DNA from: Thermococcus siculi
GTDB lineage: Archaea > Methanobacteriota_B > Thermococci > Thermococcales > Thermococcaceae
Assembly (NCBI RefSeq): GCF_002214505.1
Contig: NZ_CP015103.1
Location: forward strand, 992,001 to 1,056,000
DNA: 64,000 bases
Direction of reading: 5' to 3'
The notes below the pieces were generated by a model, which worked only from the letters and a program-made list of their open reading frames with translations, ran no database searches and was not told where the DNA came from. Of the stretch, positions 10,242 through 17,518 are shown piece after piece. The first letter of the stretch is position 1. Each line of letters begins with the position of its first letter. Both the position numbers and the translations under genes were made by a program.

Positions 10242-10258
10242 GTCCTCCGGTGATGGTA

Positions 10259-11584
10259 ATGAAGAAGACGGTGGTCATCATAGGCGGTGGAGCGGCCGGA
10301 ATGAGCGCGGCCTCACGCGTCAAGAGACTCAAGCCGGAGTGGGACGTCAAGGTATTCGAGGCAACTGAATGGGTCAGCCATGCACCCTGTGGCGTCCCTT
10401 ACGTTGTCGAGGGAATCTCGCCGAAGGAGAAGCTCATGCACTATCCACCCGAGGTCTTTATCAAGAAGCGCGGTATAGACCTCCACATGAAGGCGGAGGT
10501 GATAGAGGTCGAGCAGGGGCGCGTTCGCGTGAGGGAGGAGGACGGGGAACACACCTATGAATGGGACTACCTCGTCTTCGCGAACGGTGCCTCGCCGAGG
10601 ATTCCGGCCGTTGAGGGGGCCGATCTGCCTGGGGTCTTCAAGGCAGACCTCCCGCCCGATGCGGTGGCGATAACGTCTTACCTCGAGCAGAACGAGGTTA
10701 ATGACGTGGTCATCGTTGGTGGCGGCTACATAGGCGTCGAGATGGCGGAGGCCTTCTCGGCCAGGGGCAAGAACGTGACGGTCATAGAGCGCGGCGAGCG
10801 CGTCATGAAAAATGCCTTCGACAGGGAGGTAACGGACGTTCTCGAAGAGGAGATGAGGAAGAGGGTGAACCTCCGCACTCAGGAGATCCTGATGCGCATC
10901 GAAGGCGAGGGAAGGGTAGAGAGGGTCGTCACCGATGCCGGGGAGTACAGAGCCGACATGGTCATTCTGGCCACAGGGATAAGGCCCAACGTGGAACTGG
11001 CGAGGGAGATAGGCGTCAGGATCGGCGAGACAGGCGCCATATGGACGAACGAGAAGATGGAGACGAGCGTCGAGAACGTTTATGCGGCCGGAGACGTCGC
11101 CGAGACGAGGCACCTAATCACCGGGAGGCGCGTCTGGATTCCCCTCGCCCCCTCTGGAAACAAGATGGGCTACGTTGCGGGAAGCAACATCGCCGGAAAG
11201 GAGGTTCACTTCCCCGGCGTCCTCGGCACGAGCGTCACCAAGTTCTTCGACGTCGAGATAGGCAAGACCGGTCTCACCGAGGCCGAAGCGATAAAGGAGG
11301 GCTACGATGTCAGAACCGCTTTCATAAAAGCCCAGACCCGGCCGCACTACTACCCGGGTGCAAAGCCGATATGGCTTAAGGGCGTTGTGGACAACGAGAC
11401 CAACAGACTCCTCGGAGTCCAGGCCGTCGGCGCTGAGATCCTCCCGAGGATAGACACGGCGGCCGCCATGCTCACGGCAGGCTTCACCACGAGGGATGCC
11501 TTCTTCACGGATCTGGCCTACGCACCGCCCTTCGCCCCGGTGTGGGATCCGCTTATAGTTCTTGCGAGGGTTCTGAAGTTCTGA
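10259..11584 (+). CDS. nsr: CoA-disulfide reductase / NAD(P)H sulfur oxidoreductase
   Basis: 441 residues. FAD-binding [10 protein letters not shown] (residues 9-18), a redox cysteine at about residue 44 in HAPCGVPYV (single-cysteine type of the CoADR/NADH-oxidase family rather than CxxxxC), an NAD(P)-binding [15 protein letters not shown] in the middle and a C-terminal dimerisation domain ending [12 protein letters not shown]. Such enzymes in Thermococcales reduce CoA disulfide or elemental sulfur/polysulfide with NAD(P)H in the cytoplasm. GGTGA at 10249-10253 supports the ATG at 10259 over the GTG at 10250. The SurR operator in the promoter fits the sulfur-reductase role; substrate preference cannot be told from sequence alone. 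Confidence 0.88.
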
Positions 11585-13980: not shown

Positions 13981-15423
13981 ATGTGCGAGTACGTCTACGA
14001 GAACGGCCAAAGATGCAGGCTGAAACCCGTCGAAGGCTCGAAGTACTGTCCGCTGCACATCCCCTACGACGAGGCCGAGAGGCTGCTCGGCGACGATGCG
14101 AAGAGGGTCAAAGAGGAGGCCTTTCTAAGGCGTCTGAAACAGGGGCACACGTATTTTGAGGGCGTTTACCTCTACGACGTCAAGATCAGCGAACTCCAGA
14201 CCGAGAAGCCGCTCGTCTTCAAGAACTCCACCATCAGGACGATGCTCTTCGACTTCGTCAACGTCCCGGGAATAACCTTCTACAACTCCCAGGTGGGCCG
14301 GATAGTTCTCTTCGGGAGCGAGATTGGAACCCTCCTCGTTCAGGGTTCCCGCGTTTTTGGGCTGAACCTTCTGAGGGTGGCCTTTTCCAACTCCGTTTAC
14401 GTCAGGGATTCGAGCGTTCGCTACGTCATGATAAACTCGACGGAGTACGTGGGAACCGGAGAGAAGGGCGAGGAGGAGTACGGGGAGAAGAAGGCCCTCG
14501 GCAGGATAGAGCTGAACGGGTTGAAGGACGTGAGGAGGATTGGAATCAACGTCCGCTATCCCCTCATGAGGCGCATCCTCGAGGAACACGGCATAAAGCC
14601 CGTTGCCTCCTCCGAGAGGAGCGTCAAGGTCACGGCGCTCGTTCTAAGGGACATCGAGTTCGACCAGTCCGCGAGGTTCAAGAGGCAGGTCAGGCTGAGC
14701 GTGAGGCGCCTCCACGGGGGCCTGGTTCTGGAGAACCTCAACGTCTTCGGGCACGCCGAGGTTTTGGCTAGCTGGCTCAGGAACCCCGAGTTCGTTCACA
14801 CGAGGGTCATGGGAAACCTCATCTTCCGGAGGGTTTCCTTCCACGGCGACTTCGCCTGGAACTCCACCGTCCTCCCCAACATACCCGTCGAGCTGAGTGT
14901 GGAAGGCTTCGTGGATGTGGAGAACTGCCGCTTCAGCAGTCCTCGCGCGGCGGAGATATTCTACCGTCTGGCGAGAATAAGCTGGGAGAGGAACGGCGAC
15001 TTTGAGAGGGCCGATGAGTACTACTATCTGGAGATGGTTTCCAAAAGGAACTCCCGGCTGGGCGGCAGGAGAAAGGGCCTCAAAAGGTTCTTCCTTAAGC
15101 TGGAGGCCCTCTTTGAGTGGCTCTTCGCGGACCTGACCTGCAAGTACGGAACAGACTGGAAGAGGCCGATCCTCATATGGCTCGCCGCGGTTAACGTCTT
15201 CTTCCCCCTCCTCTATCTCCTCACGGAGAGCGTTGAGGGTCTTTCAAGTTCGATGGGCGTTCTCGACTACGAGTACTTCAGCATAGTAACCGCAACAACG
15301 CTCGGCTACGGAGACTACCACCCGGTAGGCGTGGGCAGGGCCATAGCATCGGTGGAAGCGCTCTTTGGAATGTTCATGTGGGCGGTCTTCCTGACGGTCT
15401 TCGCGAGGAAGTACATGAGGTGA
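13981..15423 (+). CDS. Two-TM potassium-channel-like pore fused to a zinc-binding, beta-helix-like cytoplasmic region
   Basis: 480 residues. N-terminus: possible zinc site C-x9-C-x10-C-x2-H (MCEYVYENGQRCR, YCPLH). Residues about 50-330 are a series of short beta segments of pentapeptide/beta-helix flavour (FKNSTIRTMLFDFVNV, NSQVGRIVLFGSEIG, VENCRFSSPRAAE). C-terminus: TM1 ILIWLAAVNVFFPLLYLL, pore helix and filter TATTLGYGDYHP (TLGYGD, close to the K+ filter TVGYGD), then TM2 AIASVEALFGMFMWAVFLTVF. So a tetrameric cation channel gated by an unusual cytoplasmic domain is likely. The next gene starts 4 bp after the stop, indicating translational coupling. Confidence 0.8.
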   Translation: MCEYVYENGQRCRLKPVEGSKYCPLHIPYDEAERLLGDDAKRVKEEAFLRRLKQGHTYFEGVYLYDVKISELQTEKPLVFKNSTIRTMLFDFVNVPGITFYNSQVGRIVLFGSEIGTLLVQGSRVFGLNLLRVAFSNSVYVRDSSVRYVMINSTEYVGTGEKGEEEYGEKKALGRIELNGLKDVRRIGINVRYPLMRRILEEHGIKPVASSERSVKVTALVLRDIEFDQSARFKRQVRLSVRRLHGGLVLENLNVFGHAEVLASWLRNPEFVHTRVMGNLIFRRVSFHGDFAWNSTVLPNIPVELSVEGFVDVENCRFSSPRAAEIFYRLARISWERNGDFERADEYYYLEMVSKRNSRLGGRRKGLKRFFLKLEALFEWLFADLTCKYGTDWKRPILIWLAAVNVFFPLLYLLTESVEGLSSSMGVLDYEYFSIVTATTLGYGDYHPVGVGRAIASVEALFGMFMWAVFLTVFARKYMR

Positions 15424-15427
15424 GAGC

Positions 15428-16561
15428 ATGATAGGGCTTATAATCAACCCGATAGCTGGAATGGGGGGAAAGGTGGCGCTCAAGGGCACCGACGGCGTCG
15501 TCGAGGAGGCGATAAGGAGGGGAGCAAGGCCCGTGGCTCCCGACCTCGTGAGGCTCTTCCTTGGGGAGCTGAGCCACTACGGGGAATCCGCCGAAATCGA
15601 GTTCCTTACCGGTCCCGGCCCGCTTGGGGAGGATGTTCTGAGGGAGTTCGACTTTCCCTTCGAGGTTATCAGGCACAGGAAGGTAACCTACCGGACGGTT
15701 GATGGCGTCAGAATTCCGGATACGACCTCCGAAGACACTAGAGAGCTTGCCGGGGCGATGGTGGGGAAGGTTGATTTGCTCCTCTTTGCGGGGGGAGATG
15801 GAACGGCGAGGGACGTCGTGGGGGTTGTCGATGAGAGGGTTCCCGTTCTCGGAATTCCAACGGGGGTGAAGATGTACTCCGGAGTCTTCGCCACCTCCCC
15901 TGAAGACGCGGCGAGGGTTCTCGTCGAGTTCCTCAAAGGGAAGGCCAGACTTGAGGAGAGGGAAGTTAGGGACATCGATGAAGATGCCTACCGACACGAC
16001 GAGGTCAGTGCGAGAACCTACGGAAAGGCCATTGTTCCGGTCGTTGAGACGCTCGTCCAGGGGAGCAAGGAGAGGGTTCCCATAGATGAGGAGGATGAAC
16101 TCGAGGCAATCGCCGAGGCCGTGGCGGAGGAGATACTCGAGAGCGATGGGGTCTACTTCCTCGGCTCCGGCTCCACAGTAAAGAGGATAAAGGACATGCT
16201 TGGAATAGACGGGACGCTACTCGGTGTCGATATTGTCGAGGTTCGGGACGGGAAGGCGCGGCTCCTCGTTAAGGACGCGGCAGAGAGGGATCTTCTGAAG
16301 TTCGTTGAGAGGAACCCCAGGATAGTGGTCACGGTTATCGGCGGGATGGGCTTCCTCTTTGGCAGGGGCAACCAGCAGTTCTCGGCGGAGGTTCTGAGGC
16401 ATATTCCCAAGGAAAACATCACCGTGGTCGCAACGCCCTCCAAGATCAGAGACGGCGTCGTGAGGGTCTACACGGGCGATAGGGAGGTCGACGAAAGGCT
16501 CAGGGGCTACATACGCGTCAGGGTAAGCCCCTGGATGGAGAGGATGGTCAGGGTGGTTTAG
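15428..16561 (+). CDS. ATP-NAD kinase-like protein (COG3199)
   Basis: 377 residues. Opens with MIGLIINPIAGMGGKVALKG and has the NAD kinase/diacylglycerol kinase fold signature LLLFAGGDGTARDVVGVV with GGDGT, then GIPTGVKMYSG. C-terminal half includes GGMGFLFGRGNQQFS. These are the features of the COG3199 group, predicted polyphosphate/ATP-dependent NAD kinases distinct from the canonical NAD kinase. GGTGAGAGC precedes the ATG; the ribosome site overlaps the stop of the channel gene, so the two are co-translated. Whether it phosphorylates NAD, a lipid or another small molecule cannot be decided here. Confidence 0.82.
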   Translation: MIGLIINPIAGMGGKVALKGTDGVVEEAIRRGARPVAPDLVRLFLGELSHYGESAEIEFLTGPGPLGEDVLREFDFPFEVIRHRKVTYRTVDGVRIPDTTSEDTRELAGAMVGKVDLLLFAGGDGTARDVVGVVDERVPVLGIPTGVKMYSGVFATSPEDAARVLVEFLKGKARLEEREVRDIDEDAYRHDEVSARTYGKAIVPVVETLVQGSKERVPIDEEDELEAIAEAVAEEILESDGVYFLGSGSTVKRIKDMLGIDGTLLGVDIVEVRDGKARLLVKDAAERDLLKFVERNPRIVVTVIGGMGFLFGRGNQQFSAEVLRHIPKENITVVATPSKIRDGVVRVYTGDREVDERLRGYIRVRVSPWMERMVRVV

Positions 16562-16618
16562 GCGGACGAACCAGAAGCCGTTTATACCACCTCCCCCTAT
16601 TCTCAACCGGTGGATGCT

Positions 16619-17518
16619 ATGAAGTACAGCCGCATAGCGGTTCGGCTTTTTGAGAGGGAGGGTGAGGACGTCTTCTACGACCCCGTTTATCACGGAAGAA
16701 CCCTCAAGGTCTTTGGCATGGACGAGTGGCCGGGGAAGATCCTCCAGTACTTTGTGGAGCGGTACCGGGAGATAGGCTACGGTACGGTGGTCTTCGACAC
16801 CACGGGAACTTTCCCGGAGGAGGGCTTTGACACGGTTATCAAGGTGGAGGATGGAAAAGGAACCGGCCTCGACCCGCTGGTTCTGGCTTCCGAGGGCATC
16901 ATTGACGGCTATACCGCCGCCACGATAATCCAGACCGTCTACGGCCTCGACAGAACCCTAACCGAGAGACTCTACGCGGACTTCCTCGCCGGGAAGGCGG
17001 GAAGCGTTCCGGAGGCGGCGAAGTCGGAGAACAAGTACGCCGAGGTCATCCTGGAGAGCTACACGCCCCTCGATGAGGCCTTTTACCGGGGCAAACCCCC
17101 CGAGTTCGGAGATAACATCCTGGTGAACCTCGGGGAGACGTACAGCATAACCCTCGCTGGGATGGCTTTTCTGGTGGTGAGTGCCGCTATCAGAAAGAGG
17201 AGGAACGTGATGGTTGGCGTTAACGATGCCGCGGTTCTGGCCTACACGACCGCCGGTAGCGCAGCCGTGCCCCTCATAACGAGGCCACTGAGGCGGAGGG
17301 TAACTGTATTAGCCACGCAGTACGCGGTGGAGTCCATAATGAACCTCTCCGGCCCGAGCCTGCTCCTCTACCATGACCCCGACACTCAGAGCGTCGTCTA
17401 CGAGGCCAATGGTGTTCCCCCAGGTCCGATGAGGAAGCACGTACACAAGGGGCAGGCGGCCTTCATATATCGCACTCCGGAGACGATAGACGTGGAGTGG
17501 GGCGAGATATCTCTCTAG
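16619..17518 (+). CDS. Uncharacterised protein resembling a degenerate HerA/VirB4-like ATPase
   Basis: 299 residues from ATG 16619 (GGTG at 16609-16612 is the ribosome site; TATA-like TTTATACC near 16580). I do not recognise a named family. The order of blocks recalls HerA/VirB4-type ATPases: GMDEWPGKIL where Walker A would be (GK present, Ser/Thr missing), TVVFDTTGTF as a Walker B-like strand, LDPLVLA, then VMVGVNDAAVL and VTVLATQYAVESI (strand with sensor-like Gln) and a terminal GQAAFIYRTP. Key catalytic residues look lost, so a non-hydrolysing paralogue is one reading. It may be read with 13981-16561 but has its own promoter-like box. Confidence 0.65.
   Translation: MKYSRIAVRLFEREGEDVFYDPVYHGRTLKVFGMDEWPGKILQYFVERYREIGYGTVVFDTTGTFPEEGFDTVIKVEDGKGTGLDPLVLASEGIIDGYTAATIIQTVYGLDRTLTERLYADFLAGKAGSVPEAAKSENKYAEVILESYTPLDEAFYRGKPPEFGDNILVNLGETYSITLAGMAFLVVSAAIRKRRNVMVGVNDAAVLAYTTAGSAAVPLITRPLRRRVTVLATQYAVESIMNLSGPSLLLYHDPDTQSVVYEANGVPPGPMRKHVHKGQAAFIYRTPETIDVEWGEISL

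Follow-up and report, generated by a model that had tools for sequence, protein, structure and literature searches.

The best-known potassium channels are gated by domains placed after the second transmembrane (TM) helix (RCK, cyclic-nucleotide-binding or Kir domains) or by voltage sensors. Here we describe a gene for a predicted potassium channel, and the NAD-kinase-like gene that follows it, in a 64,000-nucleotide stretch of the Thermococcus siculi genome (the window; positions 992001-1056000 of NZ_CP015103.1, the only contig of the complete 2.03 Mb genome). KcsA, Kir and KirBac resemble the window channel in their two-TM pore and selectivity filter. However, Kir and KirBac have a C-terminal Kir domain, whereas the window channel has none and carries its presumed sensor at the N terminus instead. 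The likeness extends further in HalA, the anti-phage effector of Hailong, a nucleotide-polymer-gated channel whose parts (a cytoplasmic N-terminal domain, helices and a C-terminal two-TM pore) come in the same order as those of the window channel. The partners differ: HalA is accompanied by the nucleotidyltransferase HalB, the window channel by the NAD-kinase-like gene. According to passages in PMC13275509 and PMC12265719, both citing Tan et al. 2025, HalA is blocked by the poly-dA product of its partner. The window channel is a divergent, near-core Thermococcaceae member of a wide, unnamed and little-studied channel family related to HalA.

A predicted channel with an N-terminal solenoid

The product of the channel gene is very probably a K+ channel with a cytoplasmic solenoid sensor (coordinates in Table 1). 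PF07885 (Ion_trans_2) covers residues 400-478 at 49.7 bits (cut-off 22.5), and hydropathy analysis gives two strong membrane segments, at 393-421 and 448-479, together with one marginal stretch (108-126) that falls inside the predicted solenoid. The selectivity filter reads VTATTLGYGDYHP (TTLGYGD), and 35 residues remain from the filter to the end of the protein. These results agree with a preliminary description of the locus, made from the sequence alone, which had proposed a channel with a TLGYGD pore and two C-terminal TM helices. Much of the pore is invariant across 18 full-length orthologs. A Pfam search of the channel protein returned no TrkA_N match at E values up to 1, which sets it apart from RCK-gated K+ channels.

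The open reading frame (ORF) is not a chance one, as a homolog is present in 90 of 94 Thermococcales genomes. Protein searches retrieve relatives from Thermococcus and other Thermococcales, and more distant matches from one Archaeoglobaceae and one Aciduliprofundum metagenome-assembled genome (MAG). The complete N-terminal sequence of the window's channel class has matches in 82 of the 115 genomes of a phylum sample, all 82 of them from Thermococcaceae; some of these matches are fragments of paralogs only.

AlphaFold2, run with 18 sequences, predicts in order a helix, a two-part β-solenoid, a helical hairpin, a slide-like helix, TM1, a pore helix and TM2. The predicted local distance difference test (pLDDT) score averages 85.5 over the entire protein and 91.0 in a separate model of residues 1-362, and it falls below 50 only in residues 160-171. 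The N-terminal region is thus predicted to be folded rather than disordered, in line with the β-helix-like sensor that had been proposed. The preliminary description had also placed about 390 residues of short β-repeats ahead of the pore. Two solenoid segments of this kind are present in the model (58-152 and 175-316, with a strand repeat of about 10 residues), whereas residues 29-53, 291-304, 321-361 and 367-388 are predicted to be helical. The four residues of the putative C/C/C/H (CCCH) zinc site recur in all 18 orthologs, which supports the zinc-type site read from the sequence; C316 and C387 are invariant too, and the site gives a weak match to zf-C3Hc3H, under the cut-off. The hairpin linker is conserved in orthologs, and paralogs as well as relatives from bacteria and haloarchaea have a similar segment. 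In the slide-like segment D384, C387, Y389 and G390 are invariant (18/18). The repeats score 11.9 bits against the pentapeptide family PF13576, below its cut-off of 27, and a search by sequence for solved structures related to the N-terminal domain gave E values of 0.45 or worse.

A conserved channel–kinase gene pair

The channel gene is flanked by a radical SAM gene upstream and the NAD-kinase-like gene downstream, the latter on the same strand at a spacing of 4 bp. The stop codon of the channel gene overlaps a ribosome-binding-site-like element that precedes the kinase ATG, which suggests that translation of the kinase is coupled to the channel gene. In agreement with the earlier assignment of this next gene as NAD-kinase-like, its product matches PF01513 (70 bits, cut-off 25.5) and PF20143 (53.5 bits, cut-off 23.7), and its GGDGT motif is invariant in 13 of 13 aligned sequences. 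A search by sequence found no solved relative of the kinase-like protein. Elsewhere in the genome (L055:1096-1932) lies a further NAD kinase gene of canonical appearance, with GGDGT and the NE motif typical of NAD kinases, and this second enzyme leaves the window's kinase-like protein free for another role.

Pairing was counted at the single best place per genome in the 94 Thermococcales genomes, from ortholog places compiled by hand. The channel ortholog is found in 81 genomes and the kinase in 91, and in 76 of the 81 the kinase is the next gene downstream, is read in the same direction and is separated from the channel by no more than 67 bp. The gene coupling noted in the preliminary description is therefore seen in relatives as well. 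The pair occurs in four of six genera (g1, 49/50; g3, 9/9; g4, 11/12; g5, 7/7; g2, 0/2; g6, 0/1). Two neighbouring pairs served as yardsticks: the kinase adjoins the next gene downstream in 48 of the 76 genomes that carry the two, and the radical SAM gene adjoins the channel downstream of it in 25 of 69. Channel and kinase are the most stable of the three neighbour pairs tested, and they stay together in genomes where the other neighbours have been lost.

The five genomes without adjacency all have channel and kinase on different contigs. In one (G082) the channel match starts 13 bases from a contig end and another (G003) holds only a fragment, so that clear separations are limited to G001, G093 and perhaps G045. 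The pairing is real, and it is specific to the window's channel class. A literature search found no work on a Pyrococcus channel–NAD kinase pair.

The spacing is tight, 4 bp in 18 of the 76 pairs and 10 bp in 28 (some 10-bp gaps may stem from start-codon choice). It would suit an arrangement in which the kinase-like protein is an ancillary subunit docked on the solenoid, its nucleotide-bound state setting the gate, in a manner comparable to KefF on KefC. Docking would also fit the protein binding known for pentapeptide solenoids, MfpA and Qnr among them. In the K+ efflux system KefC–KefF, KefC is antiporter-like with a C-terminal Rossmann domain and KefF is the oxidoreductase encoded next to it; the likeness is that of a K+ pathway gene beside the gene for an NAD(P)-linked enzyme. 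However, the kinase occurs alone in 10 genomes, and we consider docking improbable.

Two further observations concern the surroundings of the pair. In one genome that has lost the channel (L074; G015:C1:83326-83588), short radical SAM remnants lie just upstream of the kinase, as if the channel had been lost by deletion or decay. The ORF at 16610-17518 of the window (302 residues), which adjoins the kinase in 48 of 76 genomes, is present in 79 of the 94 and has no Pfam or NCBIfam match at E values up to 1.

Table 1 Features of the channel–kinase locus (positions in the window)
Feature	Position	Strand	Evidence
Channel gene, 480 residues	13981-15423	+	Ion_trans_2 above cut-off
Putative zinc site, C2/C12/C23/H26	13984-14058	+	Invariant in 18/18 full-length orthologs
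N-terminal helix, residues 29-53	14065-14139	+	AlphaFold2
β-solenoid part 1, residues 58-152	14152-14436	+	pLDDT mostly >90; solenoid/β-helix fold matches
Disordered insertion of variable length, residues 160-171	14458-14493	+	pLDDT <50, alignment gaps
β-solenoid part 2, residues 175-316	14503-14928	+	AlphaFold2
Helical hairpin linker, residues 321-361, RLARISWERNGDFERADEYYYLEM	14941-15063	+	Alignment, AlphaFold2
Amphipathic slide-helix-like segment before TM1, residues 367-390	15079-15150	+	Helix in model; role presumed
TM1, residues 394-416	15160-15228	+	AlphaFold2 model, hydropathy
Pore helix and TTLGYGD filter, residues 427-445	15259-15315	+	PF07885, alignment, model
TM2, residues 451-480, last part of protein	15331-15420	+	Model, hydropathy
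Ribosome-binding-site-like GGTGAG, overlapping channel stop codon, 5′ of kinase ATG	15419-15424	+	Sequence
NAD-kinase-like gene, 377 residues	15428-16561	+	PF01513/PF20143 above cut-offs

Relation to HalA

A Foldseek search with the full model returned a sole PDB match with an E value below 0.001, HalA with oligodeoxyadenylate (9nyi; E value 3.4e-4, 348 columns). The TM-score is 0.37 by target length and the root-mean-square deviation (r.m.s.d.) 10.5 Å, which means that the domains of the two proteins do not superpose as a single body. VIA-align, run on the full model only, ranked β-helices highly, including the phage Sf6 tailspike (Z 16.6, r.m.s.d. 3.4, 255 aligned) and the pentapeptide protein HetL (Z 15.6, r.m.s.d. 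3.0, 217 aligned), and HalA was not among its best 50 rows. When Foldseek was given only the N-terminal domain, pentapeptide-type solenoids (designed beta1 variants, MfpA, AlbG and QnrB) came first, headed by a loop variant of a designed solenoid (E value 4.8e-3); again HalA was not among the best 50.

The HalA profile NF051894, with a cut-off of 250 bits, gives 14.5 bits for the window protein and 32.6 bits (E value 4.6e-8) for a close paralog, L060, whose residues 266-435 align to positions 166-335 of 338, that is, to linker and pore. Linker and pore are probably homologous to those of HalA, and a common N-terminal fold is not established. Given the sub-cut-off score and the absence of an adjacent nucleotidyltransferase gene, we rejected the identification of the window protein as HalA itself. 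Assignment as a mobile or defence gene also found no support: seven proteins gave no PADLOC match, 52 pattern matches in viral contigs included no channel relative, and none was found in phage records.

The same data bear on whether the channel is a Hailong-like defence effector, that is, a guard channel that a nucleotide signal keeps closed until infection opens it. Such a role gains support from HalA's place at the head of the fold matches to the full model and from the match of its profile to the linker and pore of the paralog. However, the flanking genes include no nucleotidyltransferase partner, the gene is near-core, the window protein itself falls far short of the HalA cut-off, and the PADLOC, viral and phage searches are negative. 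A defence role of this kind is thus very improbable.

A wider family of solenoid channels

In the preliminary description this architecture was held to be without precedent among known channel families. This does not stand, because the same layout is found in Thermococcus paralogs, in an Aeromonas ORF and, with variations, in haloarchaeal proteins, as well as in HalA. Among the matches listed, further Thermococcales paralogs likewise begin with a CCCH site and continue through a solenoid-type region and the hairpin linker to a C-terminal pore; the class names used here, 'class-4-like' included, are labels of our own. Class-2 paralogs start with MCKMAHFGNCDPET and have pentapeptide repeats above the Pfam cut-off; class-3 paralogs are about 390 residues long, with ADL/ANL-type repeats and a TTVGYGD filter. 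All four elements, including the CCCH site, are present in an ORF of an Aeromonas caviae plasmid record (L110:3620-4582). Three haloarchaeal plasmid proteins have the linker and pore, and their repeats were scored by Pfam for Halorarius only. They carry the generic RefSeq names 'potassium channel family protein' or 'pentapeptide repeat-containing protein'; examples of entries so named are WP_255152795.1, WP_247995655.1 and WP_227357293.1. Of 13 family members sampled, 10 show the strict CCCH pattern, and the three haloarchaeal ones do not.

The window channel thus shares with these unnamed pentapeptide-repeat K+ channels the solenoid-type repeats, the hairpin linker, the slide segment and the terminal TM1–filter–TM2 unit, and with the Aeromonas protein and Thermococcus classes 2 and 3 also the CCCH site. 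It differs in that its repeats score below the pentapeptide cut-off and in that the kinase pairing is found only in its class. No description of the family was found in the literature searched.

The class-2 set (loci L061-L070 and L113-L130) has a solenoid that is hypervariable among species (mean identity 22%, 90-619 residues), with mean identities of 72% for the first 70 residues and 61% for the last 110; the N-terminal and middle figures come from the 16 of 24 members with the start motif, the pore figure from all 24. Several copies are interrupted. The architecture has the look of a rapidly diverging sensor joined to a constant pore. Individual paralogs depart from the canonical filter: L115:2975-4972 has lost GYGD entirely, L126:1213-2607 has SLGYSN, and L128:3592-6456 has TTGSYGD and a long in-frame repeat region N-terminal to the CCCH site. 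An Archaeoglobaceae MAG (L021:1080-2208) encodes a class-2-like pentapeptide channel as two ORFs, the repeats first and the pore second, and in genome G074 (L149:3366-6285) two channel paralogs of different classes stand in tandem on the same strand, one of them with a window-type CCCH start.

Coenzyme A-disulfide reductase neighbours

Among the matches listed, class-2 paralogs lie upstream of a gene for a coenzyme A (CoA)-disulfide-reductase-like flavoprotein, an enzyme of NAD(P) type, on the same strand and within 2 kb, at 23 of 27 loci, and within 60 bp at 13 of those 23. Most of these loci are probably one inherited locus, so that the 23 cases are not independent events. The flavoprotein scores 358 bits against TIGR03385, under the cut-off of 578.8. 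No such neighbour was found at the 11 class-3 loci or at five loci of other odd paralogs. The window has a CoA-disulfide reductase of its own (10250-11584; 592 bits, NCBIfam cut-off 578.8), 2.4 kb upstream of the channel. Of the 78 genomes with both genes, 33 have the reductase ortholog on the channel's strand and no more than 5 kb upstream of it (within 300 bp in nine). This proximity is suggestive of redox coupling, but weakly so.

A broader scheme would have the Thermococcales solenoid K+ channels gated by pyridine-nucleotide or thiol redox state, as set by the enzyme next door (NAD-kinase-like for the conserved class, CoA-disulfide-reductase-like for the hypervariable one), with HalA as a specialized offshoot. 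We regard this scheme as distinctly unlikely as it stands.

A model for gating by the solenoid

We propose that the gene product is one subunit of a tetrameric two-TM K+ channel, in which the solenoids would form a ring under the membrane, sense a cytoplasmic signal, and open or close the pore by shifting the slide helix and TM1. As no residues follow TM2, there is no C-terminal domain to pull, so that gating would have to act either at the filter or by way of TM1 together with the slide segment. The kinase-like enzyme of the same operon would act in the same process. The signal may be, or may be reported by, a compound kept at its level by the kinase, either a pyridine nucleotide or a phosphorylated product, and K+ flux would then track NAD(P) or redox state. 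The preliminary description had likewise suggested that the kinase-like protein could produce or consume a ligand of the channel. This mechanism is supported by the PF07885 match with its canonical filter, the folded solenoid, the HalA match, the adjacency in 76 of 81 genomes, the overlapping ribosome-binding-site-like element and the flavoenzyme neighbours. Its parts are not equally secure. A functional link between channel and kinase is likely, whereas an NAD(P)-type nucleotide as the gating signal is a tentative proposal, and on its own an unlikely one. For the whole (a tetrameric K+ channel gated through TM1 by the solenoid and functionally linked to the kinase, a nucleotide signal being the likeliest version) we see the balance as even.

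Several results weigh against the model. No nucleotide-binding site was identified in the solenoid. The kinase-like protein misses the NCBIfam NAD kinase cut-offs (best 23.9 bits, 309 required), and it aligns with the canonical NAD kinase over only 64 columns around GGDGT. The kinase occurs without a channel ortholog in 10 genomes, in eight of which the downstream gene still adjoins it, which makes the channel the dispensable partner; in G001 and G093, channel and kinase each occur without the other adjoining. Outside the window's class, a kinase neighbour is absent from the Halorarius, Halocatena and Haladaptatus loci (by annotation) and from the Archaeoglobaceae (L021) and Aciduliprofundum (L022) loci (by Pfam, for some neighbours), and class-2 and class-3 loci gave no kinase match. 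Finally, in genera g3 and g4 no ortholog of the window's CoA-disulfide reductase lies close to the channel.

Some of these points favour the main rival, in which the two genes share regulation only (for example by salt, heat or redox stress) and the channel senses an unrelated stimulus. This might be ionic strength, membrane tension or, at the CCCH site, zinc or the oxidation of thiols. The invariance of C2, C12, C23 and H26, the similar sites in paralog classes and Aeromonas without a kinase neighbour, and the 10 genomes with the kinase alone would all fit. However, shared regulation does not sit easily with a pair that outlasts its other neighbours, and we judge this explanation somewhat unlikely, though the strongest of the alternatives.

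Under the model we favour, the locus is a candidate for K+ channel activity that may follow the metabolic state of the cell. HalA's cytoplasmic domain aside, a β-solenoid acting through TM1 is not a gating mode described in the literature searched. If the kinase sets the ligand, NADP supply would be linked to K+ flux in hyperthermophiles, and HalA would take its place in a wider family whose ordinary role is open to study in a genetically tractable archaeon.

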